NCBI GenBank assembly: GCA_001898935.1
Contig: MKVT01000013.1
Coordinates: 124,001 to 188,000 of the forward strand
Reading direction: 5' to 3'
From: Paludibacter sp. 47-17
GTDB taxonomy: Bacteria > Bacteroidota > Bacteroidia > Bacteroidales > Paludibacteraceae
Length of the DNA stretch: 64,000 nt
Shown: in pieces, positions 29,712 to 45,834 of the stretch
Layout of the letters: the number at the start of each line of letters is the position of its first letter
Numbering within the stretch: the first letter of the stretch is position 1
Position numbers and translations under genes: made by a program
Notes under the pieces: model-generated
The model's database searches: none
Told to the model about the DNA's origin: nothing
The model's input: only the letters and a program-made list of their open reading frames with translations

Positions 29712-30818
29712 TTAGTCCTGACAGGCCGCAGGCAACTTGAAACTAAAGGTCGTACCTTTGTCGGGTTCACTGCTCACGGTTAATGTTCCATTATTATATT
29801 CTACAAAATCTTTCACCAACAACAACCCAAGTCCCGAACCTTTTTCGTTACCTGTACCATAGGTGGTAAAATGCTGACTCGGTTTAAACAAGCGGCTCAA
29901 CGCTTCTTCGGTCATCCCTATTCCATTGTCGCTCACCGAAATACGTACCCATCCTTCTTCCTCGGCATCGTCTACCGAAACCACAATCTTTCCGTTTGCC
30001 TTGGTGAATTTAATCGCATTCGACAATAAATTCCTGAAAATCAAACTCAACGAATTCGAATCAACATATACGGTATATACTTTGGGCGCTACAAATTCGA
30101 GCGAGATCTGCTTGGAATTAGCAATTGGTTTGAGCAATCGTATGCTTTCCATCACTGCCAGATTAATGATCACATCCTGAGGATCGATAACAATCCGTTT
30201 CGACTGACTGCGCGACCAGTTGAGCAAGTTGTCGAGCAGGTACATGACGCTTTTCGAAGTAGTGCGCAATTCTTCCACCAGTCGCGCCTTCAGAGGATCG
30301 TTGAATACCAGGTCTTCCGACAATAAATCCAATACCTGGCTGAAATTACCGCAAGGTCCCCGCAAGTCGTGCGAAATAATCGAGAAAAGCTTGTCTTTCG
30401 TGGCATTAAGCTGCTGCAACTCCTTACTTTGCTGCCTGATTTTCAAATGAGTGGAAACACGAACTTTTACTTCTTCGGCCTTAAAAGGTTTACTCACATA
30501 ATCGACGCCACCTACCGCAAAAGCCTGAATCACACTTTCCGTATCGCTCAGAGCACTGATAAAAATTACCGGAATCTCGGCCAATTCGGGCGAACTTTTC
30601 AGACGCTTGCAAACTTCGTATCCATTAATATCGGGCATCATTATATCGAGCAAAATCAAATCAGGCTTCTGCAATTTTGCTACTTCAAGAGCCTGGTTAC
30701 CGTTGAGCACCGGACGTACCCTATACCCCTCCAACCTCAGAATTTCGCTGAGTACTTTCAGGTTGGCCGGAGCATCGTCGGCAATTAAAATATCGTACAT
30801 CTGATTACGTTCGTTCAT
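29712..30818 (-). CDS. Receiver-histidine kinase (REC-HisKA-HATPase)
   Basis: About 368 residues, soluble with no membrane helix. An N-terminal receiver has D58 as phosphoacceptor (DLILLDIMMPDINGYE) and K110 (YVSKPF). It is followed by HisKA with H150 (FSIISHDLRGPCGNF) and a HATPase domain with N box NLLSNAIKFT, G1 VSDNGIGM and G2 GSGLGLLLVK. The receiver-first order means it is probably controlled by phosphoryl transfer from another kinase. Several ATGs are possible (30827, 30818, 30800); 30818 is a compromise. A -7-like TATTTTTG (minus) at 30915-30922 serves it. It is divergent from the hybrid kinase at 31008 and is a paralogue of 33416-34531. Confidence 0.87.
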   Translation of the reverse strand: MNERNQMYDILIADDAPANLKVLSEILRLEGYRVRPVLNGNQALEVAKLQKPDLILLDIMMPDINGYEVCKRLKSSPELAEIPVIFISALSDTESVIQAFAVGGVDYVSKPFKAEEVKVRVSTHLKIRQQSKELQQLNATKDKLFSIISHDLRGPCGNFSQVLDLLSEDLVFNDPLKARLVEELRTTSKSVMYLLDNLLNWSRSQSKRIVIDPQDVIINLAVMESIRLLKPIANSKQISLEFVAPKVYTVYVDSNSLSLIFRNLLSNAIKFTKANGKIVVSVDDAEEEGWVRISVSDNGIGMTEEALSRLFKPSQHFTTYGTGNEKGSGLGLLLVKDFVEYNNGTLTVSSEPDKGTTFSFKLPAACQD

Positions 30819-30914
30819 ATCATGCATGGCGTACAAGTTATTTTATCATAGAAAGCCGATAACTTCTCATCGAACAACCGTTGTGTTTTACTAATGAATT
30901 ATTATATTATTTCA

Positions 30915-30993
30915 CAAAAATAGAATAATTTTCTGATGATTCAGCATAAAAACACTTTGCGAGTTGAATTTTTAAAAAAAAGCACTACTTTCG
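30915..30993. promoter_or_regulatory. Divergent promoters of the two kinase genes
   Basis: On the minus strand, TATTTTTG (30915-30922) faces the REC-kinase. On the plus strand, TTG (30964-30966) plus 19 bp plus TACTTTCG (30986-30993, one mismatch to TAnnTTTG) faces the hybrid kinase. The plus promoter leaves a leader of only about 14 bp before the ATG at 31008. Confidence 0.55.
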
Positions 30994-31007
30994 TTTCTTC
31001 AAACTCA

Positions 31008-33227
31008 ATGAATGGAATGAACAAGGATTTCGAACATGACGCATCGCTGCCAAAAAGAGAATTCAACTCAACATTACCCGAATTGGAACTCAGCAATTAC
31101 AACTCCTTCGAATGGACCTGTAATAAACTGACCTGCAACTTTCAACAGCTTATCAATTCAATCACGCTTATTTATTCGAGGCCCGATCTCGATTTTATTG
31201 AACGGAATATTCCTTCGGTGCTGGCCTCCATGGCCCGGTTTACCAATGCCGATCACCTGGCCGTGTGTACCTGCGGCCCCAATTATAAAACCATTACTTC
31301 GTATTACGAATGGAATGCGCCCGAAGTGGAATTTATTCAGGGAAATTCGGGGAAGGTGACAACAGCCAATTTTTTAAAATATTATTACCCCCTTCATGCG
31401 CAAGGAAAAGAAATTTACCTAAAAAAAACCATTCAATCGGAAAAAGAGCTAAAACCGGTCACCGACCAGATGATCCTTAACGGAATAAAAAGCCTGATCA
31501 GCTTTCCTTTGTTTCAAAACAACTCGCTGATTGGAACAATAGAATTTTACTACCTCCGCCACGATACCGATTTCCACGAACGCGAACTTAGTTTTTTGCG
31601 GTATTTTGCTCAGTTACAATCCAATGTTATTCAACGTATACTGCATCATAAAAAATGGCTGGAGGACGCCAATGCGTATGTCACCCGTCAGCAAGGATAC
31701 GAAAAAGAACTGAAAGCAGCCCGAAAAAATGCTGAAAATGCCAAAAAAGCAAAAGAAACATTTTTTGTCAATCTAAGCCATGAAATACGCACTCCGCTGA
31801 ATATCATTTCAGGAATGCATCGCGAACTCATGCGCGAACAGCTCAACAGCCGGCAGAAACAATTCCTGCAACAGTCGGCAGTGGCTTCCAAATTATTGCT
31901 CAACCTGTTTCAAAACGTGATGGATATCAACGATATGGAAAGTGGCAATTTCACCTTAAAACAAAGAGACTTTAATTTAAGGCAGCTGCTGCTCGAGGTA
32001 AAAGAGATGATGGACGGCAAAATAAACGAAAACAAATCGATTGACTTCCAAATGATTATAGCCGACAATCTGCCCGGAGCCTACAAAGGCGACGATCAGC
32101 GACTGCAACAGGTTTTAATCAAACTGATTTCAAATGCGTTCAAATTTACCGAACGGGGCGTGATTCGTGTCGAAGCCACTATCCGGCGCAAAACCAGTGG
32201 CTTTCACGAAATTCTCTTTGAAATTGCCGATTCGGGCATTGGTATGAGCAAAGACTTTATCGACACTGTTTTCACGCGGTTTTCACAGGAAGATGATTCG
32301 TTGAACCGCATACACAGAGGTGCCGGCCTGGGATTGTTTATTTGTCACCGCTTGGTGAAGTACATGGGAGGCACCCTTACTTTCGAGAGCGAAAAAGGCA
32401 TAGGAACCCTCATTCATCTCACGCTACCCTTAGCCCTGGGCAACGAAAAAAGCCTGGAATCTCAGCAGATGCAGGCCTCCGGTTATTCTTTCAAGAACAT
32501 GAAAGTATTGCTGGTCGAGGATAACGACACAAACCGTTTTATCGCCCGCCAATCGCTCCTTTCAACGGGTTGTGAAACCTACGAAGCTTCCAACGGAGAA
32601 GAAGCAGTTGCATACCTGCGTACCCACAATGTAGATATCATCCTGATGGATATTCAAATGCCGGTGATGAATGGCCTGGAAGCAACCCGGCTGATACGCA
32701 AGGAACTAAAACTAAAGACGCCGGTAATAGCCTTTACCGCCAACGCGGTGGACAGCGAAATCGCCAAATACATGAGTTACGGTATGGAGGATTATATCGT
32801 AAAACCCTATCGTGAAGATGAATTATTCGAAAAAATTAAAAAACTTACCCGTTCAATCCAAGAGAATATGATGGAATATAATTCGACAGAAAAATTGTAC
32901 GATCTGAGTTACCTGCAGGAATTAAGTCAGGGCGATGAAAGTTTTACACGTCAGATAATAGAAACTTTTCTGATAATGGCCGAGCAATCGGTCGAACAAC
33001 TCAGGGCCGCCCAAACCGACAACGATGTGTCGGCCGTACGGAGGATAGCACACAAAATAAAACCGACTCTGGCAAATTTCCAGATCACATCGCTTAAAGC
33101 GCTGATTGAAAAGCTAAATCAGGCGGAGCCTGGAAGCATGGAACCAGAGGAATTACGCAGGGATGTCGATAAAGTAATCGACATTCTCACCATTATTCAG
33201 TCGCAACTGAAAGAAACGCTCGGTTGA
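31008..33227 (+). CDS. GAF hybrid histidine kinase with receiver and Hpt
   Basis: About 739 residues, soluble. A GAF-like sensor occupies about 55-215, followed by a coiled linker rich in Lys/Ala (KELKAARKNAENAKKAKE). HisKA has H258 (NLSHEIRTPLNI). HATPase has N box LIKLISNAFKFT, G1 ADSGIGM and G2 GAGLGLFIC. The receiver has D548 (IILMDIQMPVMNG) and K (IVKPY). The C-terminal Hpt domain has H682 (RIAHKIKPTL). All phosphorelay residues are in place, so a full His-Asp-His relay is expected, passing phosphate to another receiver. Upstream in-frame starts from 30936 were rejected because they precede the predicted promoter. No output domain. Confidence 0.88.
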   Translation: MNGMNKDFEHDASLPKREFNSTLPELELSNYNSFEWTCNKLTCNFQQLINSITLIYSRPDLDFIERNIPSVLASMARFTNADHLAVCTCGPNYKTITSYYEWNAPEVEFIQGNSGKVTTANFLKYYYPLHAQGKEIYLKKTIQSEKELKPVTDQMILNGIKSLISFPLFQNNSLIGTIEFYYLRHDTDFHERELSFLRYFAQLQSNVIQRILHHKKWLEDANAYVTRQQGYEKELKAARKNAENAKKAKETFFVNLSHEIRTPLNIISGMHRELMREQLNSRQKQFLQQSAVASKLLLNLFQNVMDINDMESGNFTLKQRDFNLRQLLLEVKEMMDGKINENKSIDFQMIIADNLPGAYKGDDQRLQQVLIKLISNAFKFTERGVIRVEATIRRKTSGFHEILFEIADSGIGMSKDFIDTVFTRFSQEDDSLNRIHRGAGLGLFICHRLVKYMGGTLTFESEKGIGTLIHLTLPLALGNEKSLESQQMQASGYSFKNMKVLLVEDNDTNRFIARQSLLSTGCETYEASNGEEAVAYLRTHNVDIILMDIQMPVMNGLEATRLIRKELKLKTPVIAFTANAVDSEIAKYMSYGMEDYIVKPYREDELFEKIKKLTRSIQENMMEYNSTEKLYDLSYLQELSQGDESFTRQIIETFLIMAEQSVEQLRAAQTDNDVSAVRRIAHKIKPTLANFQITSLKALIEKLNQAEPGSMEPEELRRDVDKVIDILTIIQSQLKETLG

Positions 33228-33270
33228 CAGCATTTTTTCCGTTTATATTGAATAAAATAATTCAAACCTA

Positions 33271-33299
33271 TTGATATTTAAAATAATTTACTACTTTTG
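33271..33299 (+). promoter_or_regulatory. Promoter and 110-nt leader of the second REC-kinase
   Basis: TTG 33271-33273, an 18-bp spacer, and TACTTTTG 33292-33299. The ATG is at 33416, so the leader is about 110 nt. Within it, ATTTTGTA (33319-33326) and TACAAAAT (33332-33339) can pair into a hairpin. No known riboswitch is recognised. This promoter probably drives the whole polysaccharide operon. Confidence 0.65.
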
Positions 33300-33415
33300 C
33301 ATGTAGAAATAGTAAATAATTTTGTAGCAATTACAAAATCTGAAAACTAGTCTGAATTACTTATAAATGCTTGTTTGCAACTCTCTCGAAAAGTAGGCAA
33401 CTTCATTTAGTAAAC

Positions 33416-34531
33416 ATGAAGAAAGTAATCGTAATCGACGACAATACAGTATCGCTGGTACTGATCGCAAAAATATTAACTACGGCAGGTTACAAAGCGG
33501 TTGTGACCGACGACGCAGTAAATGCGCTTGAAAAAATAAGGTCGGAGAAGCCATCACTGATCATATTGGATATCGAGATGCCGGAAATCACTGGGTTTGA
33601 ACTCTGTAGAAAAATCAAAACTCAGGATGATCTGAAAGATATACCGGTTATATTCTTAACGGCCAACCAGGAAACCGATACCATGGTAGAAGGTTTTCAA
33701 TCGGGAGGTGTCGACTTTATCACCAAGCCATTCAGAAAAGAAGAGTTGTACGTGCGGGTACGAAATCATATCGAGCTGGCCGAATCGCGTAAAACCATCG
33801 TAGAGATGAACAATTCGCGCGACAAGCTGTACTCGATTATTGCTCATGACATTCGTTCCCCGCTGGCAGGGATCTTACAAACCATCGACGCCATCGATCA
33901 GGGTTTTTTTGATCCGTCCTCTGAGCTTTTCAGCGAAATTATTCGGGATTTAAAAAATCGGACAAATGAGACAAACACTTTACTGAACAGTTTGTTACAG
34001 TGGACGAGAATGCAGGACAAGAACGTGGCGCTCAACCTTAAGATGACCAATATATACGAGTTGATGAAAAGTTGTATTAGTCTTCTTGAACTGAACGCCA
34101 AAGAAAAAAACATCGGCATAGAGCTCAAGTTGAAGAAAAATTTTGAAGCATTTTGTGACGAAGTAAGTACGCATACCGTGTTCAGAAACCTGATCAACAA
34201 TGCAATTAAGTTTACGCCGGAAAACGGGAAAGTAATTATAAACGGCAAAAGCGGCCTGCGGTACATGGAAGTTTCGATTGAAGATACGGGAGTGGGGATG
34301 AGCGCCGAAGTCATCAACAAGATACTGGTCGAAAACGAACATTATACCAGTTTTGGTACTCACAACGAAAAGGGGACAGGATTGGGATTGATGATCGTAA
34401 AAAACTTTATACAACGTAATAAAGGACTTTTAAAAATCGAAAGCGAAGTAGGTGCGGGGAGTAAATTTACAGTATGCCTGCCTTCCTTACCCCGGGCCGG
34501 TAGCGTATCGAAAAAAAGAAAGTTGAAATAG
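33416..34531 (+). CDS. Receiver-histidine kinase (REC-HisKA-HATPase), paralogue
   Basis: About 371 residues, soluble. The receiver has D52 (SLIILDIEMPEITGFE) and Lys in FITKPF. HisKA carries H144 (YSIIAHDIRSPLAGI), N box NLINNAIKFT, G1 EDTGVGM and G2 GTGLGLMIVK. The ATG at 33416 starts directly with MKKVIVIDDN; residues upstream in frame are not receiver-like. It shares the unusual YTSFGTHNEKG/FTTYGTGNEKG lid with the kinase at 29712, showing that the two arose by duplication. It is 28 bp before the lone receiver and the first gene of the run into the glycan genes. Confidence 0.88.
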   Translation: MKKVIVIDDNTVSLVLIAKILTTAGYKAVVTDDAVNALEKIRSEKPSLIILDIEMPEITGFELCRKIKTQDDLKDIPVIFLTANQETDTMVEGFQSGGVDFITKPFRKEELYVRVRNHIELAESRKTIVEMNNSRDKLYSIIAHDIRSPLAGILQTIDAIDQGFFDPSSELFSEIIRDLKNRTNETNTLLNSLLQWTRMQDKNVALNLKMTNIYELMKSCISLLELNAKEKNIGIELKLKKNFEAFCDEVSTHTVFRNLINNAIKFTPENGKVIINGKSGLRYMEVSIEDTGVGMSAEVINKILVENEHYTSFGTHNEKGTGLGLMIVKNFIQRNKGLLKIESEVGAGSKFTVCLPSLPRAGSVSKKRKLK

Positions 34532-34559
34532 CAAACAAAACGAACAAATTGTGCCTGAA

Positions 34560-34934
34560 ATGAATAAAAAGATATTAATAATTGACGACAACAACGAGTT
34601 CCGGAGGCTGACCAAAACCATCCTGACGAGCAAATACGAAGTAGAAACAGCCATCAATGGTATCGAAGCTTTCGCCTTGTTGCAATCAGGTTATCTACCC
34701 GATTTAATTGTTACCGACCTGATGATGCCAGGGATGGGAGGCAAAGGATTTGTAGAACAACTAAAAAGTAGCGGGGCATTCCGGCAGATCCCGGTCATCG
34801 TCTTATCGTCGATCGATAAAAGCGATGAAAAAATCCAATTGCTACAATTGGGGGCTGCCGACTACCTTGAGAAACCCTACAATCCTACCGAACTACTGAT
34901 CCGGATCGAAAACATTTTCAAATACAGAAGTTAA
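34560..34934 (+). CDS. Single-domain response regulator (CheY-like)
   Basis: 124 residues from the ATG at 34560; a GTG nine bases earlier is less likely. The receiver is complete: DD at 9-10 in ILIIDDNN, D53 (LIVTDLMMPGMGG), Ser at about 83-84 in VIVLSSID and K105 (DYLEKPYNPT). It has no output domain, so it must act by binding a partner or by acting as phosphate sink for the Hpt of the hybrid kinase. It lies 19 bp before the sugar transferase gene, whose N-terminus is itself receiver-like. Confidence 0.9.
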   Translation: MNKKILIIDDNNEFRRLTKTILTSKYEVETAINGIEAFALLQSGYLPDLIVTDLMMPGMGGKGFVEQLKSSGAFRQIPVIVLSSIDKSDEKIQLLQLGAADYLEKPYNPTELLIRIENIFKYRS

Positions 34935-34953
34935 CCAAATCGAAACGCTGCTT

Positions 34954-36066
34954 ATGCTTTATAAGGCATTGTACATAGGAAAAGATCCCTCGTCGGCCAA
35001 CCGGCTGAACGAAGGGGAGAGTCGCTTTGAATGCCAAACCGTAACGACGGTATTTGAGGCAATAGCCATCAAACCTGCCTGCCAATGCGTCCTATACCAG
35101 CACGAGAATGACCAGGAAACCTTACTCGCCCTGCAGGTCCTGAATCAGAATCTGATTCAATCGCCTACCGTCATCTTTGTAATCGGCGATGTAAGCAATG
35201 CGCCTGTCTGGATTAAAAACGGGGCCCATGATGTATTTCCTCCCGACTTCACCCCTTCGTCGCTGGTGGCCCGTTTCAATTTTGTATACGAACATTTCGA
35301 ACAATTGAGCGCCGGCAACCGTAGCGACGACAGGATAACATCGTTTCGCCTGCCCTTGTGGAAACGTGTGTTCGACATTGCTTTTTCGTTGGCTGTGCTC
35401 TTGATATTACTGCCTTTCTTTCTGCTTATCGCCCTGGCCATCCGTATCGAATCGAAAGGTAAGGTTTATTACATAGCCCCCCGGGTGGGCACAGGTTACA
35501 GGATTTTCGGATTTATAAAATTCCGGAGCATGTATCTGAATGCCGATACAAAAGTCGACACCTTGATGAACGACAATCAGTACGTTGTGCGGGAAGCGAA
35601 ATCGGATCAGTACAACAACGAAAGTCCTTTATTAATCAGCGACGACGGGTTGGTACAGGAAGATATTTACAAGGCCAAAAAGTCGAGAAAAAGAGATAAT
35701 GCATTTTTCAAGGTCGCCAACGACCCCCGTATCACGAAGGTAGGACGATTGATCCGGAATACAAGTATCGACGAATTACCTCAATTTATCAATGTGCTGA
35801 AAGGCGACATGTCGATAGTGGGGAATCGTCCGCTTCCGCTTTATGAAGCCGAATTACTCACCACCGACCAATGGTCGAAACGTTTTTCGGCTCCGGCAGG
35901 CATTACAGGACTTTGGCAGATCACAAAACGAGGTGGAGCTAACAAGATGTCGGCCGATGAGCGAAAACAACTCGATGTTGAATATGCCGAGAACTTTTCG
36001 TTCTGGTACGATTTAAGAATAATTTTAAAAACAATCCCTGCAATGTTGCAGCATGAAAATGTGTAA
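34954..36066 (+). CDS. Sugar-phosphate transferase with N-terminal pseudo-receiver
   Basis: 370 residues. Residues about 1-120 look like a receiver fold with the phosphorylation site gone: the strand QCVLYQHEND stands where the Asp should be, and GAHDVFPPDFTPSSLVARF resembles the end of a receiver (GADDYLTKPF...) with Lys replaced by Pro. A membrane helix follows at about 140-163. The catalytic domain of the bacterial sugar transferase (WcaJ/PglC-like) family then carries FIKFRSM at about 187-193, DPRITKVGRLIRNTSIDELPQ with the Asp-Glu pair at about 273-274, and GNRPLP. It should start glycan synthesis by moving a sugar phosphate to undecaprenyl phosphate. An insertion of about 55 residues follows KFRSM. 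Confidence 0.88.
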   Translation: MLYKALYIGKDPSSANRLNEGESRFECQTVTTVFEAIAIKPACQCVLYQHENDQETLLALQVLNQNLIQSPTVIFVIGDVSNAPVWIKNGAHDVFPPDFTPSSLVARFNFVYEHFEQLSAGNRSDDRITSFRLPLWKRVFDIAFSLAVLLILLPFFLLIALAIRIESKGKVYYIAPRVGTGYRIFGFIKFRSMYLNADTKVDTLMNDNQYVVREAKSDQYNNESPLLISDDGLVQEDIYKAKKSRKRDNAFFKVANDPRITKVGRLIRNTSIDELPQFINVLKGDMSIVGNRPLPLYEAELLTTDQWSKRFSAPAGITGLWQITKRGGANKMSADERKQLDVEYAENFSFWYDLRIILKTIPAMLQHENV

Positions 36067-36079
36067 ACAGAACTGTTGT

Positions 36080-36826
36080 ATGCGAAAACTGATTTTTATC
36101 CTTGTGCTTTTTTTAATTGGCTCTGTGTCGGCGAAGGCTCAGAAGATGACCGATTTATTTAAAGACATCGATAACGACACCATCCTGCTGGAGTTTGATT
36201 TTCCCGAACTGAGCGATCTTGTCAAGGCTGCCCAGGAGCATCATGCCTATCACAAGATGCAGAATGCGCAGATGCGCAATTTTCAATCGCAGATCGATGC
36301 AAAGAAAAGAGAATGGCTGGATCACTTTTATATCGATGCAGACACGCGTTACGGTTTGTACAATTATATTTTTGTTGCCGGGAATCAGAATGTTCCCGGA
36401 ATTACGCCGGTCGATAACCAGTTTAGTTACTATGTAGCCTTTTCGGTGCGGATCCCCTTGTCGGTCTTTACCAAAACCAAGCATGAAATACGGGCGCTCG
36501 AACATACGATCGAGCAGCACCGGGCCTATCAGCAACAGCTCAACGATGAGTTGGAGCGTCTGGTGATCGAGGAGTATTACCTCATGTATACGTTCAGGGA
36601 ACAAATGGTGTCGTTTCAGGAAGTAATGCAAACCGTACGTACGATGTACTTGAAAGCGCTGCGCGATCTGGAGCGGGGTTACATCAGCATGGAAGCCCTT
36701 ATCGATATAGGCGAATCAAAGGCAAAGGCAGAAACTGATTTTTTCAAAGCAAAATATGAATTTTTCATGCATGCAGAAAAATTGATGGCATTAACGGGTT
36801 ATAAATTCAAACCACAGATCCGATGA
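36080..36826 (+). CDS. Single-repeat TolC-like outer-membrane protein
   Basis: About 248 residues with signal peptide MRKLIFILVLFLIGSVSAKAQ; an ATG at 36053 that overlaps the previous gene is an alternative start. The mature protein has a helix (ELSDLVKAAQEH...SQIDAKKREW), two probable outer-membrane strands (FYIDADTRYGLYNYIFV and QFSYYVAFSVRIPLSVF), then a long helical hairpin (TKTKHEIRALEHTIEQH ... GYISMEALIDIGESKAK ... EKLMALTGY). This is the pattern of one TolC repeat, whereas classical TolC has two in about 430 residues. In this operon it occupies the place of a polysaccharide exporter. It overlaps the next gene by 4 bp. Confidence 0.72.
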   Translation: MRKLIFILVLFLIGSVSAKAQKMTDLFKDIDNDTILLEFDFPELSDLVKAAQEHHAYHKMQNAQMRNFQSQIDAKKREWLDHFYIDADTRYGLYNYIFVAGNQNVPGITPVDNQFSYYVAFSVRIPLSVFTKTKHEIRALEHTIEQHRAYQQQLNDELERLVIEEYYLMYTFREQMVSFQEVMQTVRTMYLKALRDLERGYISMEALIDIGESKAKAETDFFKAKYEFFMHAEKLMALTGYKFKPQIR

Positions 36827-38997
36827 ATTTAGTTACTATATTGAAGCTTCTGTATTCGAAGCTCACCTACATAATTATTATTCCGCTGGTGTTCGGGTTC
36901 ATCACCTTTCTGATTACCCGTAATCTGCCCGAGCGATATACTTCGACGGCGACTTTATTTACCGGTATTACGTCCAATACCGGACTCGAAATGCTGGGTA
37001 CCCGGATCGATAACGTGCAAACCCTGAACGAGTACAATAATATCTTGAGTATCCTCAAGTCGCGTTCGCTGGCCGAGGAAACCGGATTGCGGCTGCTGGC
37101 CCAGCACTTGATGCAGGACGGGCCTAATGGTCTTATTATCAACGAGGAGGCATTCAGCGAACTGATGGAGGATACGCCCGAAGATGTGAAACGTCTGATC
37201 GTGAAGGGTGATATGGAAAAGAGCTATCACAACCTCCGGTACAATGTGACCCACGACAAGGATGGGTATCTTTACAAATTGTTGAACGAAGATCATCCCC
37301 ATTATAGTGTCGAAGCAATCAATAAGCTGAATTCGGAACGGATAGGCGCATCGGATCTTATTAAGATTTCGTACGATTCCGACGATCCTGCTATTGCTTA
37401 CAACACCATTAAATTTGCCACCGAAATCTTCAACAACAAATACATTGTTCTGAAAAAAAACCAGTCGAGCAATGCGATCGCCTATTTCCAGCGTAAATTA
37501 CGTGAACTATCGGCCCAGCTACAGGCTGCCGAGCAGAAACTGTTGGAATATAACATCGCCAACAATATTATTAACTACGACGAACAAACCGAACAGATTA
37601 CCACCCAGCAGGAAAAAATCGAGGTGCGCCTGCAGGACGTAAAAATGGAGTATGAAGCGGCCGGTGCAGTAGTCAAGAAGTTGGAGGACGAAATTGAAGC
37701 CCGTTATAAAATCAATTTACAGAACAAGCAGATTATTGACCTCCGGAGGCAATTGGTGAATATGAATAACGAAATTGCCCAGATACAAGTGTACGATTCG
37801 GAGACCAACCCCCAGAAACTGCAACAGCTGATTTTGCGGCGTGCACAGCTGGAGCGCAGAATACAGAATAATATCGACTCGACCTATACCACCGACAGCA
37901 AGACGCAGGGAGTGGAATTTCAGCGGATGATGGCCGAATGGTTAACTGCGATTACCAATTATGAATCGAACGCAGCTTACTACAAATCGATGCTGGAGCG
38001 TCACCGTGAATTTATGAGCCAATACAAGGAACTGGCCCCGGTAGGTGCGACCATTAAACGGTACGAACGGGAAATCAATGTAATCGAGAACGAATACCTC
38101 AATGTTCTGAACAACCTGAACGTAGCATTACAGAAGGAACAAAACATGGAAATGGTTACCGACATGAAAATGATGGACGAAGCCACACTTCCACTGATTC
38201 CCAACAAATCGCGTCATTTACTCTACATTTTAATCGTTTCCATTTTCTCGTTAATCTTTTATATCGCAGCACTGTTGGCCATCGAGATACTCGATATGCG
38301 AATCAAAACACCTTCCAACCTGTCCCGGTTGAGCGAGATGGAGGTGCTGGGTGCGTTTTGTTCGCCAGTAACCAATTACCAAGCGGCAGCCGATCATATC
38401 AACAAACGCACTTCTGTGTTTATATTCGAGAAAATCAGGGAGTTGGCCACCACCAGCAACCGCCCGATGATTATCCAGATCCTCAGTATCTGGGATCAGG
38501 CGGGAAAAGTAGAAACGGCGAATTATATCGCATCCGAACTGAAGGACCGGGACTGGAATGTAAAGATTTTCAATTTTGCCGCCGTGACTTCCAACAATGG
38601 CGAGACGACCGTAAACGAAGATCCGGCAAACCCCTATTCGTTGACTTATCGTTACCGGAACTCCGACACCTATACCGAATTGTTCAGCTACCTCCGCACC
38701 AACCCCGAAGTGATCATCAGTATCCTGCCGTCGGTAAGCAATGGTATCGACAACTCGGTGATTATAAAAACAGCCGACATGAGTCTGGTCGTATTCGACG
38801 GCATGCTTACCTGGCACGAAGCAGAAACGATGCACCTGACCAAACTGAAAGCACTGATTGGCAAATCGTTCTTCACCTTGCTCACCAACGGTAAAGTGGA
38901 GTATATGGAAGATATGTTTGGCGAAATACCGAAAGACCGTTCGGCATTCCGCAAAAAGATGAAACAATTACTGACTCGCTTTGCCGGGCGTCCCTGA
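36823..38997 (+). CDS. Wzz/GumC-like chain-length protein with degenerate BY-kinase tail
   Basis: 724 residues. An N-terminal Wzz domain has TM1 (LTYIIIIPLVFGFITFLI) and ERYTSTATLF. A long periplasmic coiled coil spans about 220-440 (many Q/E/K heptads). TM2 is near 466-490 (LLYILIVSIFSLIFYIAALLA). A cytoplasmic tail of about 230 residues aligns in shape with BY-kinases, but the Walker A loop is reduced to WDQAGKVETANYIA (about 555-570) and the Walker B position reads VIISILPSVSNG. No C-terminal Tyr cluster is visible. It should set chain length or form the periplasmic conduit without ATPase activity. It is translationally coupled to the TolC-like gene. Confidence 0.85.
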   Translation: MNLVTILKLLYSKLTYIIIIPLVFGFITFLITRNLPERYTSTATLFTGITSNTGLEMLGTRIDNVQTLNEYNNILSILKSRSLAEETGLRLLAQHLMQDGPNGLIINEEAFSELMEDTPEDVKRLIVKGDMEKSYHNLRYNVTHDKDGYLYKLLNEDHPHYSVEAINKLNSERIGASDLIKISYDSDDPAIAYNTIKFATEIFNNKYIVLKKNQSSNAIAYFQRKLRELSAQLQAAEQKLLEYNIANNIINYDEQTEQITTQQEKIEVRLQDVKMEYEAAGAVVKKLEDEIEARYKINLQNKQIIDLRRQLVNMNNEIAQIQVYDSETNPQKLQQLILRRAQLERRIQNNIDSTYTTDSKTQGVEFQRMMAEWLTAITNYESNAAYYKSMLERHREFMSQYKELAPVGATIKRYEREINVIENEYLNVLNNLNVALQKEQNMEMVTDMKMMDEATLPLIPNKSRHLLYILIVSIFSLIFYIAALLAIEILDMRIKTPSNLSRLSEMEVLGAFCSPVTNYQAAADHINKRTSVFIFEKIRELATTSNRPMIIQILSIWDQAGKVETANYIASELKDRDWNVKIFNFAAVTSNNGETTVNEDPANPYSLTYRYRNSDTYTELFSYLRTNPEVIISILPSVSNGIDNSVIIKTADMSLVVFDGMLTWHEAETMHLTKLKALIGKSFFTLLTNGKVEYMEDMFGEIPKDRSAFRKKMKQLLTRFAGRP

Positions 38998-39018
38998 TAA
39001 TATTTTACGTATCCCACC

Positions 39019-40473
39019 ATGCCCAGCACTTCATCAGGTTTCAGGAGCAATGCACACACGATGTTGTCTATCATCGTGTTAAGCTTTTTCCTATTGTTGA
39101 TGTTGGCTGCAATGGTGCTGTTTGCCGGTAATAACCTGACTACCGGTCTGTTGTTAATTCTATCCCCGGGATTTCTGATAGCTGCGATCTGGATGCTGGT
39201 AAAACCCCATTTCGGAGTCGTAGCGATAATGTTTGCCAATTTCTTTTCCATCGGTATTTCAAGGTATGTGAACCTGCCTACCGGCTTAATGGTGGACGGA
39301 TTCCTGGGACTTACCTTGGTCGGGATATTTTTCAGTCAGTTACACACCAAGGTGGAATGGAAGAATGCATTTCGCGACTTCACCTATCTTGTTGTATTCT
39401 GGATGTTTATGACCACCGCCCAGCTTCTCAATCCCGAAGTGGCGAGCCGTACGGCCTGGATTTATGCCATGCGAAGTATGGCGCTATACTCGGTTATTAT
39501 TGTACCGGTAGTGTATCTGATCTACAACAAGCCCAAGGATATGATGTCGTTTATCTACCTATCGGGCTGGTTCACCTTGTTGGCGATATTGAAAGGAGTA
39601 CAGCAAAAATTTATCGGTCCCGATCCCTGGGAACAACGCTGGCTCGAGATACCCGGGAATCAAACCACTCACGTACTTTTCGGTATTATCCGCGTGTTTT
39701 CCTTTTTTGCCGATGCCGGTACGTATGGAGGAATGATGGCCTACTTCGGCGTGGTGTTTTTAATATTGGCCATACACCTGAAAGTATCGGCCGGTAAAAA
39801 ATTGTTTTTCTGGTTGGTTGCCCTGGGATCTTTTTACGCGATGGCTATTTCGGGTACCCGGAGTGCGGTGGCCGTACCCTTTGTCGGATTTTTCGTATAT
39901 GCCTTCCTGACAAAAAACTTCAAAGCGATGTTTTTCACCGCTATCTTTTTGTTTTTTGCCGTATTCATCCTTCGATATACACAGATTGGAGAAAGTATCT
40001 ACGAAATACGAAGGATGCGTACCGTGTTCCAGACCGACGAACCCTCGTTGAAGGTACGTGAAGAAAACAGGGCATTGTTCAGAAAATACCTCGAATCGCG
40101 CCCTTTCGGAGGTGGAGTGGGATCGGCCGGAAACTGGGGTTTACGCTTCTCGCCGGGGACCTTCCTGGCGCAGACTCCCACCGACGGATGGTATATACAG
40201 GTATGGGTGGAGCAGGGAATCGTAGGATTGGTTTTCTATTTGTTTATGATTTTGTACTTTGCCGGTAAGGCCGGGGTGCTCATTTTATTTAAAATCAAAG
40301 ACAATAATTTCAGATTTACGGCCATTGCCTTTCTTGCGGGAGCGTTCGGGATCATGGTGTCGTCGTACAGTGCCTCGACGCTGGGTCAGATGCCCGGAAC
40401 CATTTTGTTCTTTATGTCAATGTGTTTTATTTCGCTGATGCCCGAATGGGAAAAAAACAACTTGACACTATGA
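39019..40473 (+). CDS. O-antigen polymerase/ligase-like membrane protein
   Basis: 484 residues with about ten or more membrane helices, starting after a short cytosolic tail (MPSTSSGFRSNAHT). The large periplasmic loop between about 315 and 400 (RRMRTVFQTDEPSLKVREEN ... GGVGSAGNWGLRFSPGTF...PTDGWYIQVWVEQGIVGL) matches the layout of the Wzy_C/O-antigen ligase family. It likely polymerises repeat units made by this operon; a ligase role is the alternative. The gene ends in an ATGA overlap with the flippase. Confidence 0.82.
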   Translation: MPSTSSGFRSNAHTMLSIIVLSFFLLLMLAAMVLFAGNNLTTGLLLILSPGFLIAAIWMLVKPHFGVVAIMFANFFSIGISRYVNLPTGLMVDGFLGLTLVGIFFSQLHTKVEWKNAFRDFTYLVVFWMFMTTAQLLNPEVASRTAWIYAMRSMALYSVIIVPVVYLIYNKPKDMMSFIYLSGWFTLLAILKGVQQKFIGPDPWEQRWLEIPGNQTTHVLFGIIRVFSFFADAGTYGGMMAYFGVVFLILAIHLKVSAGKKLFFWLVALGSFYAMAISGTRSAVAVPFVGFFVYAFLTKNFKAMFFTAIFLFFAVFILRYTQIGESIYEIRRMRTVFQTDEPSLKVREENRALFRKYLESRPFGGGVGSAGNWGLRFSPGTFLAQTPTDGWYIQVWVEQGIVGLVFYLFMILYFAGKAGVLILFKIKDNNFRFTAIAFLAGAFGIMVSSYSASTLGQMPGTILFFMSMCFISLMPEWEKNNLTL

Positions 40474-41810
40474 AACTAAAGAACTCAACTAATCTGCATT
40501 CTTTACTGGGTAATGTTGTGTATGCCGGATTCAGCATGGTGCTGTTTATCATGCTGGCAAGATTCACCGATAAAGAACTTTATGGTCGCTGGGTGATTTT
40601 CATAACCGCGTTGGGCCTGCTCGATATGCTGCGGATAGGCCTGGCCGGAACAGGGGCGATACGGTATATATCCACTTCTGTGGGCACCGATCGTGACATG
40701 ACGGTAGGAACCGCCTATCACCTAAATATCCTGACCACGGTTGCCATCACCATACTGTTTGTACCCGCCTGGTTGCTACTGTCGCCACATGCCGCCGATA
40801 ATTATTATTTGCCGGTTCTCCTCTTCTACCCGCTCTGTGCATTCGCCAGTTTGCCGCATATCCAGGCTGCCAATTACAGTCAGGGTATCATGGATTTCAG
40901 GAGGGTAATGATTATTCGTGCCCTGGTAGGTTTTTTCAACCTGGCATTCATGGGCATTTATATTTACCTGGCCGACGAGACCCTGACCGGCTTGATCCTG
41001 ATGTATAGCTTGTCGGACGTAACCGTTTCGGTCGTCGCCATGCTGATGCGCTGGGATGGCTGGAAATTCTTAAAATACTTCAACCGGTCCATCATGAAGG
41101 ATTTGTTACGATTCGGCAAATTCTCATCGGCAATCAGTATCAGCAGCAGCTTATTACGTAGCAGCGATACCTTTATTATCAGTTTGTCGGCCGCGATGGG
41201 AGCTCCTGCGGTGGCCATTTATACCATACCCATGAAACTGGTTGAAATGATCGAAATACCGCTTCGAAGCTTTGCCGCTACCGCATTCCCGAAGCTCTCG
41301 ACCGGCTTTCACGAAAAATCGGACCGTTTTGTAAAGGACTTCAACACCTATCTCAGCTATTCGGTACTCATGTTGATTCCGGTCATACTGCTATTACCTT
41401 TTCTATCCGAGTGGGTATTGCTTTTCTTCGGAGGGAATCAATACATTGACGCCCTCGACACTCAAAAAAACATCTTACTGATCATCACTTTCTACATTCT
41501 CACCTTACCCTTCGACCGGTTTATCGGAGTTGCCCTGATGGCCATCAATAAGCCCGAATTAAACTTCTACAAATTACTTATCATGCTCGTACTCAACATC
41601 AGTTTTGATTTGATTGCAGTATTTGTTTTCCAATCGCTCGAATTGGTCGCCATGGCTACTATTCTGTTTACAATCACCGGTATAGTTACCGGCTGGAGGA
41701 TGCTGGTTAAACATACCGAAATACGGATTAAAAATACATTGGAAGATCTTTCGACAAATATTGACGGACTTAAAACCAAGTACTCGTCTCGCTTGTTTAA
41801 ACGCTATTAA
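40470..41810 (+). CDS. Wzx-type polysaccharide flippase
   Basis: About 446 residues, polytopic, member of the oligosaccharide flippase/MOP superfamily. It starts at the ATG at 40470 (MKLKNSTNLHSLLGNVVYAG), which overlaps the previous stop; a longer in-frame start from 40422 lies inside the upstream gene. Typical features are the N-terminal GNVVYAGFSMVLFIMLARFT with KELYGRWVIF, FGKFSSAISISSSLLRSSDT in the middle, and about 12 to 14 helices overall. It should move lipid-linked repeat units to the periplasmic face. Confidence 0.85.
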   Translation: MKLKNSTNLHSLLGNVVYAGFSMVLFIMLARFTDKELYGRWVIFITALGLLDMLRIGLAGTGAIRYISTSVGTDRDMTVGTAYHLNILTTVAITILFVPAWLLLSPHAADNYYLPVLLFYPLCAFASLPHIQAANYSQGIMDFRRVMIIRALVGFFNLAFMGIYIYLADETLTGLILMYSLSDVTVSVVAMLMRWDGWKFLKYFNRSIMKDLLRFGKFSSAISISSSLLRSSDTFIISLSAAMGAPAVAIYTIPMKLVEMIEIPLRSFAATAFPKLSTGFHEKSDRFVKDFNTYLSYSVLMLIPVILLLPFLSEWVLLFFGGNQYIDALDTQKNILLIITFYILTLPFDRFIGVALMAINKPELNFYKLLIMLVLNISFDLIAVFVFQSLELVAMATILFTITGIVTGWRMLVKHTEIRIKNTLEDLSTNIDGLKTKYSSRLFKRY

Positions 41811-41820
41811 CAATTGCAGC

Positions 41821-42975
41821 ATGAAGATAGGGATAGAAGGACAAAGACTGTTCAGGCAAAAAAAACACGGTATGGATATCGTGGCATTAGAGCTGGTGCG
41901 CCGGTTATCGAAACTCGATAACCGCAACGAATATGTGATCTTCGTAAAGGACGACGACGACAGGGCTTGTATTCAGGAAAGCGCCAATGTAAAAATCAAG
42001 GTGCTTCCTTCCACCTCCTATCCTGTATGGGAACAGGTAATATTACCCAAAGCTGCATCGGACGAACAATGCGATCTGTTACATTGCACCAGCAACACAG
42101 CACCTGTAGCCACCCGTATCCCGCTCATTACCACTATTCACGATATCATCTACCTCGAAAAAGTAAGCCTGTTTTCAAAAGAAGGCACCAGTTATCAGCG
42201 ATTCGGGAATATGTACCGGCGGTTTATCGTTCCATCGGTCGCCCATAAAAGCCGCCGCGTGGTAACCGTGTCTCGGTTTGAAAAAGAAAACATCGACAAG
42301 GTGCTGCATCTGGGGAATAAGCTTTCGGTGATTCATAACGGAGTAGGCGATCATTTTGTAAAAATCAACAATACAGAACTACTTACCGAAGCCCGGAGGA
42401 AGTACAAGCTGCCTGAGCGTTACATTTTCTTCCTGGGTAATACCGATCCCAAGAAAAATACGGCTAATGTTTTGAAGGCATTTGCGTTGTACCATCAAAA
42501 ATACAACGACGATCTGCACCTGGTAATGCCCGATTATGACGAATCCACACTGCTCGATCTGCTTCGCGATACCGTAAAGCCCGACGTCAGAAACAAAATA
42601 ATTATAACCGGATACATATCGAACGAGGAACTGCCGGCCATCATCAACCAGTGTTGTATTTTGCTGTATCCGTCGCTCCGTGAAAGTTTCGGGATTCCGA
42701 TACTTGAAGGCATGGCCTGTGGCGTACCGGTTATAACCTCCAACACTTCGTCGATGCCCGAAATAGCAGGTAATGCCGCATTGATGATTGAGCCTTCCGA
42801 CCCGGTTGCCATTACGCATGCCATCGAACGAATAGTCGGGAATCCGGTATTGGCGGCCGAATTATCGGCTAAAGGGCTGAACCGGGCAAAAACCTTTTCG
42901 TGGGATAATATGACAGCAGCATATATTCAATTGTATCAGGAAGTGTACGACGAAATTAAAAATACTAAATCATGA
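41821..42975 (+). CDS. Glycosyltransferase family 4
   Basis: About 384 residues, cytoplasmic GT-B fold. Start taken at MKIGIEGQRLFRQKKHGMD (41821), since the in-frame start at 41761 lies within the flippase gene. The acceptor half contains CDLLHCTSNTAPVA and ITTIHDIIYLE. The nucleotide-sugar half has FFLGNTDPKKNTANVLKAF, then LYPSLRESFGIPILEGMACG, the E-x7-E signature, and NTSSMPEIAGNAAL. It adds a sugar to the lipid-linked repeat. The donor is unknown. It overlaps the phosphoribosyltransferase gene by 4 bp. Confidence 0.9.
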   Translation: MKIGIEGQRLFRQKKHGMDIVALELVRRLSKLDNRNEYVIFVKDDDDRACIQESANVKIKVLPSTSYPVWEQVILPKAASDEQCDLLHCTSNTAPVATRIPLITTIHDIIYLEKVSLFSKEGTSYQRFGNMYRRFIVPSVAHKSRRVVTVSRFEKENIDKVLHLGNKLSVIHNGVGDHFVKINNTELLTEARRKYKLPERYIFFLGNTDPKKNTANVLKAFALYHQKYNDDLHLVMPDYDESTLLDLLRDTVKPDVRNKIIITGYISNEELPAIINQCCILLYPSLRESFGIPILEGMACGVPVITSNTSSMPEIAGNAALMIEPSDPVAITHAIERIVGNPVLAAELSAKGLNRAKTFSWDNMTAAYIQLYQEVYDEIKNTKS

Positions 42976-43685
42976 TCAAAACCAGTTATAGGAATATCGC
43001 AGACATGAACAGCTTGCTGCTCAAAAAATTAAGTATTCTGCCCCGTCATTTCGATCTCGTTGTGGGAATCAAAGAAAGTGGATTGATACCTGCCAACTTA
43101 TTGGCGTTGTATTTGAACCTCCCTTTTTCCGATCTCAATTCTTTTTTAAAAGGTCATATTTATAAGGCCGGCGAACGAGGGAGTTTTTTTACTCACCAGG
43201 AAAACAAACGGGTACTGATTATTGACGATAGTCTGCGAACCGGGGCCACCATGCAAAAGGTACGGAGCGAACTGGCCCCATTATCCGACCGGTTCCAGTT
43301 CAGTTATGGCGTCGTGTACCTTGTTCCCGGCAAGGAACCGGAAGTCGACTATTTTTTCGAACACCTGGACCTTCCTCAGTTTATGCAGTGGCATATGATG
43401 GCCGACGGGATCCGGGAAAAAGTAAGCTTTGATCATCAGAAAACACCGGTGTATACCGAATTGAGCGATTACCCTTTTCTTTTTTCGCCAAGCACCATAC
43501 AGGCACAGGCCGCTTTCAAAAAAACCGGGAAAGCGGTTTTAAGTCTCTCCGATTTCGAACTGGTGAGTTCGACAAATACGGTGTGGAAGGACCTGAAAAG
43601 CGGAAAGTTTATGCCCGGAGTGCGGAATTTTCTGATCCAGGGCCGGAATTTTATCCGCAGAACCCTTAAAAAACTGCGAAAATGA
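42972..43685 (+). CDS. Phosphoribosyltransferase-family protein within glycan operon
   Basis: 237 residues. The PRPP-binding loop VLIIDDSLRTGATMQKV (about residues 77-93) is a clear type I phosphoribosyltransferase signature with both acidic residues intact. The N-terminal part includes FDLVVGIKESGLIPANLLAL, a PRTase-like GIxxxG region. The C-terminal 100 residues (DYFFEHLDLPQFMQWHM..., ending in a basic [13 protein letters not shown]) match no family I know. It overlaps the flanking glycosyltransferase genes by 4 bp on each side, so it is part of the glycan machinery rather than a passing nucleotide salvage gene. Possible role: making a phosphoribosylated precursor or attaching ribose. Orotate PRTase activity itself is unlikely. 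Confidence 0.82.
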   Translation: MIKTSYRNIADMNSLLLKKLSILPRHFDLVVGIKESGLIPANLLALYLNLPFSDLNSFLKGHIYKAGERGSFFTHQENKRVLIIDDSLRTGATMQKVRSELAPLSDRFQFSYGVVYLVPGKEPEVDYFFEHLDLPQFMQWHMMADGIREKVSFDHQKTPVYTELSDYPFLFSPSTIQAQAAFKKTGKAVLSLSDFELVSSTNTVWKDLKSGKFMPGVRNFLIQGRNFIRRTLKKLRK

Positions 43686-44872
43686 GTACTGCTGAAATCC
43701 TTTTCTGGATACTTGCGGCACTAATCGTATATACTTACCTGGGGTACGGGCTTGTGTTGTATATGCTTGTCAGAATCAAGCGTTTGTTTGTGAAACGCAC
43801 GATCGCCCCGCTCCATGACGACGAACTTCCGCCGGTCACCCTCCTGATTGCAGCTTACAACGAGCTCGATTATGTTCATCAAAAGATGAAAAATACGGCA
43901 GAACTGAACTATCCCGCCGGCAAACTGCATGTGATGTGGGTTACCGACGGTTCCGACGATGGAACTCCGGAGCTCATCCGGTCGTCGTATCCCGGGGTGG
44001 AAGTACTGCATCTCCCCGAACGTAAAGGCAAAATTGCCGCAATGAACAGGGCTGTTCGCTATGTTAGCACTCCGATTCTGGTCTTTTCTGATGCCAACAC
44101 CTTTATTGGTAGCGATTCGATTCGGAAAATAGCCAATCTGTTCGGTAATGCTTCGGTTGGTTGTGTTTCGGGCGAAAAGCGCATTCTGAACGAACAAAAA
44201 GAAGCAGCTTCATCGGCCGGCGAGGGTATATACTGGAAGTACGAATCGGCCTTGAAACGCTGGGATGCAGAATTGTATTCGGTCGTAGGAGCCGCAGGAG
44301 AATTATTTGCGGTACGTACCGGATTGTTTCAGGAAGTAGAACCCGACACCTTGCTCGACGATTTTATCATATCGCTCCGGATTGCCATGAAAGGATATCG
44401 GATCGAATACGATCCCGATGCCTATGCTTCCGAATGGGCGTCGGCTTCGATACAAGAAGAGTTAAAGCGAAAGATCCGGATTGCCGCAGGAGGTATTCAG
44501 GCAGTAATACGCCTTTTTCCATTGCTCAATATTTTCAAGTACCGTACGCTCTCGTTCCAGTACATTTCTCACCGGGTACTCAGATGGGCAGTAACTCCAT
44601 TTCTTCTTCCTATCGTACTGGTACTTAATCTATTTATTGCACCCGAAAGCACTCTGCTTGCGGTTATGCTGGCGCTTCAGGTTTTGTTTTATCTTGCCGG
44701 CTGGATAGGACAAATATTCGAGAGTAAAAAAATCAAACTGAAAATCTTTTTCATTCCTTACTATTTTTTATTTATGAACTATGCCGTATTTTTAGGAATT
44801 TTCAGATATTTGCAAAAAAATCAAAGCGTCAATTGGGAACGAGCCAAACGAATTAACAAAAAAACCACTTAA
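43682..44872 (+). CDS. Membrane glycosyltransferase family 2
   Basis: 396 residues. An N-terminal membrane helix ([20 protein letters not shown]) is followed by the GT-A catalytic domain: [14 protein letters not shown], then [14 protein letters not shown], the metal-binding DxD-like FSDANTF, and [20 protein letters not shown] with the catalytic acidic residue. Three C-terminal helices follow. The arrangement is that of processive or membrane-bound GT2 enzymes of polysaccharide synthesis. A Q-x-x-R-W motif is not evident, so it is probably not a cellulose-type synthase. It overlaps the PRTase gene by 4 bp, and the nucleotide-sugar gene follows 11 bp later. Confidence 0.88.
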
Positions 44873-44883
44873 TTACTGTCGGA

Positions 44884-45834
44884 ATGAAACGTATTTTAAT
44901 AACAGGCGGTGCCGGCTTTATCGGCTCACATCTTTGTGAACGTAAACTGAAGGAAGGACATGAGGTCATCTGCCTCGATAACTTCTTTACCGGACGCCGT
45001 AAAAACATTGAACACCTCAGGCAATATCCCGAATTTGAATTGGTACGGCACGACATCACCAATCCCTACCTCGCCGAAATTGATGAGATCTATAATCTGG
45101 CTTGTCCGGCCTCCCCTGTGCATTACCAGTACAATGCCATAAAAACAATAAAAACCTCGATATTGGGCGCTACCAATATGCTGGGTTTGGCAAAAAGGGT
45201 AAAAGCAAAGATTTTACAGGCATCGACCAGTGAAGTGTATGGCGACCCCATCGTACACCCCCAAACCGAAGAATACTGGGGAAACGTAAATCCCATCGGA
45301 ATACGTTCGTGCTACGACGAGGGCAAGCGCTGTGCCGAAACTTTATTCATGGATTTTCACCGGCAGCATCAAATCAAAATTAAAATCATTCGTATTTTTA
45401 ACACCTACGGCCCCAATATGCATCCCAACGACGGCCGCGTGGTTTCCAATTTCATCATGCAGGCGCTCAGAGGAGAAGATATAACTATTTTCGGAACGGG
45501 AAATCAAACCCGCAGTTTTCAATACGTCGACGACCTGATTGAAGGAATGACCAGAATGATGAATACTTCCGATGATTTTATCGGTCCGGTCAACATCGGT
45601 AATCCCAACGAATTCACTATGCTCGAACTGGCCCAGAAAGTGATCGACCTTACCGGCACCAAATCGAAAATGATTTTTAAACCGCTTCCTTCCGACGATC
45701 CCCGCCAGCGGCAACCCGACATCAGCCTGGCCAAGCAAAAGCTGAACGGGTGGGAACCTACCATCCAACTCGAAGAAGGGTTGAAAAAAACCATTTTATA
45801 TTTTGAAAATGAAATGAAAGAAGGAAGAGTATAA
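44884..45834 (+). CDS. UDP-glucuronate decarboxylase (UDP-xylose synthase)
   Basis: 316 residues, short-chain dehydrogenase/epimerase. The nucleotide-binding [17 protein letters not shown], the [15 protein letters not shown] segment, and [14 protein letters not shown] with the catalytic Tyr and Lys are all intact. [19 protein letters not shown] and [15 protein letters not shown] are characteristic of UXS, which makes UDP-xylose and CO2 from UDP-glucuronate. The plain NAD-dependent epimerase alternative is less likely because the PASPVHYQ loop fits UXS. It is the last gene of the operon, followed by a bidirectional terminator. It implies that the polymer contains xylose or a derivative. No UDP-glucose dehydrogenase is in the window. 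Confidence 0.9.

Follow-up and report, generated by a model that had tools for sequence, protein, structure and literature searches.

The stretch of DNA analyzed here (64,000 nucleotides of Paludibacter sp. 47-17, positions 124001–188000 of contig 13; hereafter the window) belongs to a genome of 4.18 Mb in 39 contigs and carries a tightly packed operon of the Wzx/Wzy polysaccharide type, in which the gene of a single-domain response regulator (SDRR) adjoins that of a priming phosphoglycosyltransferase (PST). The operon spans 33416–45834 and comprises 11 genes, all on the + strand (Table 1). It begins with a kinase, the SDRR, the PST, a one-repeat TolC-like protein, Wzz, Wzy, Wzx, and a GT4 glycosyltransferase, followed by a phosphoribosyltransferase (PRTase), a GT2 glycosyltransferase, and an enzyme resembling UDP-glucuronate decarboxylase. 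The intergenic gaps are 28, 19, −14, −4, 21, about −4, 10, −4, −4, and 11 bp, in agreement with the single direction, spacing of at most 28 bp, and 4-bp overlaps given in an earlier reading of this DNA (the original prediction). That reading had also placed all parts, including four signaling genes, in one unit of 16 kb. The parts were found where it had located them, but only two of the four signaling genes certainly belong to the unit. The gene for the GAF-kinase-REC-Hpt protein stops 143–188 bp short of the operon, depending on the start codon, and the outermost signaling gene lies on the minus strand, divergent from the operon.

Table 1. Genes of the operon and its upstream signaling region, in window coordinates.
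Product	Position	Strand	Basis
REC-HisKA-HATPase protein, divergent	29712–30836	−	Pfam Response_reg 1.7e-29, HATPase_c 1e-28; 81% identical homolog upstream in locus L011
GAF-HisKA-HATPase-REC-Hpt hybrid kinase, likely phosphorelay source	30936–33227	+	Pfam
REC-HisKA-HATPase kinase, first operon gene	33416–34531	+	Pfam
SDRR, phosphorylation site complete	34560–34934	+	Pfam Response_reg 1.1e-24
PST: pseudo-receiver (about 1–115) and small-type monotopic phosphoglycosyltransferase (137–365)	34954–36066	+	Bac_transf 2.6e-59
One-repeat TolC-like (OEP) protein, N-terminal signal-like hydrophobic segment	36053–36826	+	OEP stretch 53–249
Wzz-type co-polymerase, degenerate BY-kinase-like tail	36823–38997	+	Wzz 8.1e-6; two hydrophobic segments
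Wzy_C polymerase/ligase family protein	39019–40473	+	PF04932 7.6e-8
Wzx-type flippase	40470–41810	+	33–35% identity to Polysacc_synt proteins; 10 hydrophobic segments
GT4 glycosyltransferase	41821–42975	+	Glycos_transf_1 1.2e-28
Phosphoribosyltransferase-fold protein	42972–43685	+	Pribosyltran 1.1e-9
GT2 membrane glycosyltransferase	43682–44872	+	Glyco_tranf_2_3 4.8e-20
UDP-glucuronate decarboxylase-like enzyme (UDP-xylose)	44884–45834	+	Best solved relative, E 3.8e-124

The Bac_transf domain of the PST is complete in Pfam (residues 137–365). Seven of its residues (D141, P154, K189, R268, D273, E274, and R292) are invariant across 21 divergent sequences. Matched by spacing to these invariant columns, they correspond to the motif of monotopic phosphoglycosyltransferases (monoPGTs) given in the available text of PMC12802240, namely DX12P, K, R, a DE dyad, and R. 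Because a single hydrophobic segment (135–153) is predicted, the catalytic domain is classified from its sequence as small-type, lacking the four-helix bundle found in WbaP or EpsZ. With the PST, all NCBIfam models stayed below their cut-offs; EPS_EpsZ scored 158.5 bits against a cut-off of 800, with its best stretch at 249–365. A search of solved structures with the PST profile gave strong matches to WbaP and a bacillosaminyl-phosphate transferase, as well as a weak match to a receiver (3luf, E 0.0093).

The first 136 residues of the PST have no Pfam match. When 31 of these N-domains were compared with the 31 partner SDRRs, hhalign returned a probability of 99.4 (E 7e-22, where E-values refer to comparison with one profile only). 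As controls against the SDRR profile, five other operon proteins scored at most 0.8 and the REC-kinase 95.4. A profile built from Paludibacter N-domains only still reached 87.1 (its three controls at most 1.0), and the PST proteins of two further loci, L095 and L100, scored 3e-15 and 2e-22 against the SDRR model. The possibility of an unrelated Rossmann-like domain was rejected by these controls. Of the partner SDRRs, 72 of 73 have the complete phosphorylation triad (D13 or E, D56, and K108), as opposed to none of 77 PST N-domains. In the SDRR, D12, D13, D56, S86, and K108 are invariant in 15 sequences (numbered on a 127-aa form starting at 34551). At the acceptor position the N-domains have Glu in 41/77 and Asp in 9/77, and the PST of the window has Gln. 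Judged from these alignments, the PST N-terminus is a genuine but dead receiver, i.e., the pseudo-receiver that the original prediction had recognized on the priming enzyme. Some response regulators behave as if phosphorylated when Glu occupies the acceptor site, so that a Glu-bearing pseudo-receiver may be held in a partner-ready state.

The neighborhood of this enzyme was compared among 34 PST loci, comprising 20 phylum loci and 14 Paludibacter-type loci (12 by E-value to the genus; L018 and L048 are more distant). The window's own locus is outside the 34, L052 and L058 (duplicates of L017 and L012) were uncounted, and second PST-clade copies in two genomes (G264 and G433) are outside the linkage count. 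Controls were 60 other PF02397 places in 22 genomes, of which 59 were usable (L201 has no frame matching the PST model); four weak Bac_transf matches (84–91 bits) and one broken fragment were left out. Of the PST loci, 22 lie in control genomes and 12 do not. An SDRR was counted if shorter than 170 aa, with E <1e-8, on the same strand, and at most 400 bp upstream, and an OEP gene if at most 1.5 kb downstream. An SDRR is directly upstream in 32/34 PST-clade loci and at 0/59 control priming enzymes, and a one-repeat OEP gene is downstream in 25/34 and 0/59, respectively. Within the control genomes, the values for the PST loci are 20/22 (SDRR) and 15/22 (OEP). The PST clade is well separated, since its scores against the PST model are at least 303 bits in the 34 loci and at most 180 bits in the controls. 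Since only Paludibacter-type proteins went into the SDRR model, its matches in the 20 phylum loci are independent. Among the sequences used for the wide OEP model were 12 proteins of these tested loci, whose OEP matches are therefore not independent; six of the 12 are confirmed by Pfam, and a Paludibacter-only OEP model had already matched eight others of them or their kind. With an SDRR upstream of 32/34 PSTs compared to 0/59 controls, the arrangement is far beyond chance. The association of a live receiver with a priming enzyme fused to a dead one, together with the linkage of the one-repeat OEP gene, are the strongest facts of this analysis.

The linkage was also found in a wider sample, in which class and order loci were added and rows with an identical PST protein were merged. 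An SDRR adjoins 58 of 62 distinct PSTs with the N-domain, compared with 4 of 12 catalytic-only relatives (Fisher p 1.3e-5). Three of the four misses among the N-domain PSTs lie within 400 bp of a sequence end, and L066 is a true miss. An OEP gene is within 1.5 kb of 41/62 N-domain PSTs and 6/12 catalytic-only ones. These results bear on the idea that the locus is an ordinary exopolysaccharide cluster, with unrelated signaling genes brought alongside by chance or joint transfer. The catalytic chemistry and the pathway are indeed those of a standard Wzx/Wzy system, and receivers and kinases are abundant in such genomes. However, the pair persists at 35–70% PST identity to the window protein while being absent from all control priming enzymes, which makes this explanation, already disfavored, highly implausible. 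An arrangement local to one genome was ruled out by the genus, phylum, and wider samples. Samples at genus, order, class, and phylum level all show the parts occurring together; the lack of such co-occurrence was one of the findings that the original prediction had named as speaking against it.

The distribution of the PST itself depends on the E limit applied, which was 1e-40 for the family and genus counts, 1e-30 for the phylum search, and 1e-70 for the class and order samples, so that the counts are not comparable with each other. The PST was found in 14/48 genus genomes and 3/150 genomes of the family sample (the window genome included in both), and the PST clade in 54/395 class-level and 54/295 order-level genomes, some of them with catalytic-only enzymes and with overlap between the samples. 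A profile search of the phylum (395 genomes) found related enzymes in many families. Among 15 loci compared in detail (14 distinct, as L052 repeats L017), the order SDRR-PST-OEP(-Wzz-Wzy) is kept in 12/14 over the length of contig available. L014 encodes a 550-aa protein between PST and OEP, L048 has the kinase-SDRR-PST trio alone, and L018 keeps the order with more divergent sequences. Gene content downstream of Wzy varies among the loci, as expected for a polysaccharide locus. The first operon kinase has a 52–87% identical counterpart in 13/15 loci (not L016 and L018). Between kinase and SDRR, 9/14 loci have genes for a regulator of ~460 aa (NtrC-type where scanned, in L015) and a lipoprotein-like product of ~570–700 aa (DUF4842 and DUF4114 where scanned, in L047); both are missing at that place in the window, L010, L011, L018, and L048. 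Beyond these loci, the records of Parabacteroides distasonis (NZ_OY725779.1) and Hymenobacter yonginensis (NZ_CP115397.1) show the same gene order of response regulator, sugar transferase, TolC family protein, hypothetical protein, and O-antigen ligase. The sugar transferase has 391 aa in the former, and is catalytic-only with 279 aa in the latter.

The protein encoded after the PST has a single OEP stretch in Pfam (residues 53–249 of 257 aa), as the original prediction had noted, and one OEP repeat was likewise found in all six divergent relatives tested. Among the four OEP-profile matches in the genome, only the operon one is in a short frame (265 aa), the others having 443–505 aa. Given the single repeat in the relatives and these frame lengths, a truncated ordinary TolC was dropped as an explanation. 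Two OEP repeats per chain are the norm for TolC-type channels, and by analogy a 12-strand barrel like that of TolC would need six one-repeat copies. Against solved structures, the OEP profile gave faint matches to CusC and OprM (E about 0.05). No match to OPX (PF02563) is present on the window's contig, and hence none in the cluster.

The neighboring Wzz protein has its N-terminal Wzz domain as its only Pfam match, and its nearest solved relative is PslE (9v6l, E 3.2e-5), covering residues 174–495 only. In the tail, DQAGKV stands in place of a P-loop. Its Ser/Thr is lost, whereas the distant L099 and L107 keep NEGKT and NEGKS, for which reason the tail is assigned from its sequence to a degenerate BY-kinase-like domain. 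No kinase match was obtained for it in Pfam, and it lacks the working Walker motifs of a BY-kinase (PCP-2a). The "kinase-dead Wzz tail" of the original prediction is confirmed by these findings.

All components of a Wzx/Wzy-dependent pathway (priming enzyme, Wzx, Wzy, and Wzz) are present. Pfam recovered every part that the original prediction had named except the flippase, which has no Pfam match. This protein, starting at ATG 40470 with a 4-bp overlap with Wzy, has its relatives in three related loci, two of which (L091 and L099) have proteins that match Polysacc_synt. The GT2 protein scored 95 bits with PgaC_IcaA, under the cut-off of 422. The best solved relative of the last enzyme is UDP-glucuronic acid decarboxylase 1, and no NCBIfam model scored above its cut-off with it. 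From this resemblance to UDP-glucuronate decarboxylase we infer that UDP-xylose is a likely building block of the polymer. Homologs of the phosphoribosyltransferase-fold protein recur in clusters L011, L014, L017, L051, L090, L096, and L099. Taken together, the gene set, which is conserved in Bacteroidota, is one for the synthesis and probable export of a surface polysaccharide, as judged from its sequence families.

The signaling genes near the SDRR-PST pair vary among relatives. In L092, L097, and L105, nearby kinases share the HK-REC-Hpt order of the window's GAF-HK-REC-Hpt protein. HNOBA is present on nearby kinases of L092, L096, and L097, and Hpt on those of L092, L097, and L105. Sensor genes near the pair include H-NOX (L091, L092, and L096) and FIST (L048, L091, L096, and L105), which suggests a nitric-oxide or related input. 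When 38 PST loci were searched with these sensors, H-NOX was found in three, FIST in four, and HNOBA in four, whereas 60 control loci, which were shorter, had none of them; the query proteins originated from the searched loci, and L098 is the only match beyond them. A Phocaeicola record without annotation was used in this sensor search only. For cyclic di-GMP (c-di-GMP), GGDEF matches (E 1e-10) occur in 4/22 carrier genomes, and none was found at this limit in the window genome or the other carriers of its class (17 in all). Control by c-di-GMP is unlikely in these carriers because of this absence, which may be general in the class and is context rather than proof.

The closest described mechanism is that of EpsW and EpsZ in Myxococcus xanthus, in which phosphorylated EpsW activates the priming enzyme EpsZ, as reported from proximity labeling and heterologous activity in the available text of PMC12802240. 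In the same text, stabilization of a dimer is proposed from models, and the genomic survey around EpsW/EpsZ covers myxobacteria. The operon resembles this system by anatomy, since a stand-alone receiver with an intact phosphorylation site is encoded together with the phosphoglycosyltransferase that primes a Wzx/Wzy exopolysaccharide. However, EpsZ is described there as a large monoPGT with four transmembrane helices and a DUF, whereas the PST is not a large monoPGT and has a small-type catalytic domain and a dead receiver. In addition, the operon differs in its one-repeat TolC-like partner and its dead Wzz tail. Receiver domains on small monoPGTs are credited by PMC12802240 to an earlier survey (O'Toole 2021 PNAS). 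As far as that citation goes, they are presumably the same kind of fusion. Compared with Psl/PslE-type co-polymerases, the degenerate P-loop tail is outside the matched part of the Wzz protein. Compared with TolC, CusC, and OprM channels, the OEP domain is shared, but there is one repeat per chain instead of two. OPX/beta-barrel export (PMC9601211) likewise takes polysaccharide across the outer membrane, but the operon's cluster has no OPX match; that paper on OPX export does not use the word "TolC" in its main text. In the open-licence literature searched, no description was found of the whole gene set, of an SDRR and sugar transferase combination in a Bacteroid context, of a Paludibacter exopolysaccharide biosynthesis gene cluster, or of a TolC-like/outer membrane efflux protein together with Wzz, Wzy, and polysaccharide export.

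These findings point, with fair probability, to a Wzx/Wzy exopolysaccharide operon that has its first enzyme under direct two-component control and a one-repeat TolC-like exit. The hybrid kinase (the GAF-HK-REC-Hpt protein and/or the REC-kinase) would phosphorylate the SDRR, and the phosphorylated SDRR would dock on the non-phosphorylatable receiver fused to the PST. There it would gate the first committed step, i.e., the first sugar-phosphate transfer to undecaprenyl phosphate, perhaps in place of c-di-GMP; activation is held to be likelier than inhibition. Repeat units would then be flipped by Wzx and polymerized by Wzy/Wzz, and the polymer would exit via a homo-oligomer of the one-repeat TolC-like protein, not via a Wza/OPX channel. 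The SDRR gene adjoining the PST suggests that polymer synthesis is switched at its first step. The interpretation of the operon in the original prediction is supported by this analysis, and its labels "phosphorelay-controlled" and "non-standard export" would describe the proposed control and exit routes.

Several observations weigh against this reading, and they concern the partner of the SDRR, the constancy of the gene set, and the exit. For the partner, divergence is much faster in the N-domain (mean distance 3.5) than in the SDRR (0.95). The pseudo-receiver could be only a homodimerization or stability domain, taking the role of the cytoplasmic DUF of large monoPGTs, with the SDRR acting on another target. 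Dead receivers can be plain dimerization modules. Large monoPGTs dimerize partly via their cytoplasmic domain, according to the available text of PMC12802240. If the target of the SDRR were elsewhere, its presence next to 58/62 N-domain PSTs and 0/59 other priming enzymes would be hard to explain, and this alternative appears quite unlikely. SDRR distances show a closer fit to those of the catalytic domain (partial r 0.45) than to those of the N-domain (0.22). Both distance-matrix correlations exceed all 2000 permutations, which ignore shared ancestry. The correlations are too modest, and the distances of the N-domain too saturated, for this result to count as evidence.

Four catalytic-only relatives (L076, L078/L104, L079, and L080/L105) keep the adjoining SDRR without a pseudo-receiver, so that the SDRR may contact the catalytic domain. 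The phosphorylated SDRR might thus bind this domain, besides or instead of the pseudo-receiver, which would then derive from a fused receiver and serve as a built-in competitor or spacer. The SDRR next to the catalytic-only enzyme of H. yonginensis and the better correlation with catalytic distances are consistent with this, as is the model in PMC12802240 (as far as its available text goes) of EpsW in contact with the DUF as well as the catalytic domain of EpsZ. Nevertheless, the adjacency is much weaker where the N-domain is missing (4/12 as opposed to 58/62), and binding of this kind is considered unlikely. Conversely, L066/L096 has the N-domain and no adjoining SDRR. In Bacteroides finegoldii (NZ_OY725918.1), the pair is followed only by a glycosyltransferase and an acyltransferase, with no Wzz/Wzy in the stretch read. 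The 274-aa sugar transferase on Salinibacter ruber pSR84 is catalytic-only and has no adjoining SDRR; a response regulator is about 4 kb away, and a TolC family protein and O-antigen ligase are on the opposite strand. The sugar transferase of Aureispira anguillae (227 aa) is likewise catalytic-only and is encoded with a TolC family protein, a hypothetical protein, and an O-antigen ligase, with no response regulator next to it.

For the exit, 9/34 loci have no OEP gene within 1.5 kb downstream (it is further away in L014 and L103), and five OPX matches on contigs C1, C8, and C9 of the window genome could serve the operon's pathway. Polysaccharide export commonly involves OPX proteins, according to the available text of PMC9601211, and the one-repeat OEP protein could have a periplasmic or accessory role, the polymer leaving through an OPX protein encoded at another locus. 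This seems rather doubtful considering that an OEP gene follows within 1.5 kb in 25/34 PST loci but at none of the 59 controls, and that no OPX match is on the window's contig.

Other features of these loci were also observed. Downstream of the operon, window positions 45921–48975 encode a Peptidase C10 protein (with an inhibitor domain and a type IX secretion tail) adjoining a 189-aa gene without a family, and homologs of both also flank the operon in L011. DUF4842 lipoprotein-like genes precede the SDRR in L047 (6848–8944) and L088 (12544–14901), one of them with DUF4114, and similar unscanned genes are present in most Paludibacter-type loci. In the window genome, a single DUF4842 match lies on a different contig. 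A matrix protein is a possible product of such genes. Right-handed beta-helix proteins are encoded near the clusters in L017 (2–1504, with a type IX secretion tail) and L206 (15112–16425). L017 itself (CAMDNO010000012.1) is from a metagenome-assembled genome titled Porphyromonas cangingivalis and is the same locus as in G182 of the window's genus, such that the label looks wrong. Finally, the B. finegoldii and P. distasonis records (L203 and L204) are labeled plasmids and yet carry apparently chromosomal genes (a trp run and glyA), so they may be circularized chromosome pieces.

The priming of lipid-linked sugars uses undecaprenyl phosphate, a pool in common with the cell wall, and a direct switch at the priming step would therefore be economical. 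Direct control of this step is only starting to be described, and the PST clade is widespread, including gut genera such as Parabacteroides. A broader reading may tentatively be put forward, although it is less probable than not. In Bacteroidota without c-di-GMP enzymes, the system could be a phylum-wide alternative for switching on surface polysaccharides rapidly. Exchangeable sensors (GAF in the window; H-NOX and FIST in relatives) would feed a phosphorelay to an SDRR that pairs with the dead receiver built into the PST and often locked by an Asp-to-Glu change at its phosphorylation site, and the exit would be a homo-oligomeric one-repeat TolC channel with a symmetry able to match the Wzz ring. 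If true, the control proposed here would allow bacteria that lack c-di-GMP to link a sensor to the surface polymer post-translationally, and the proposed exit would be a type of export channel distinct from the OPX scheme. A live receiver paired with a dead one also provides a clean test case for pseudo-receiver function.

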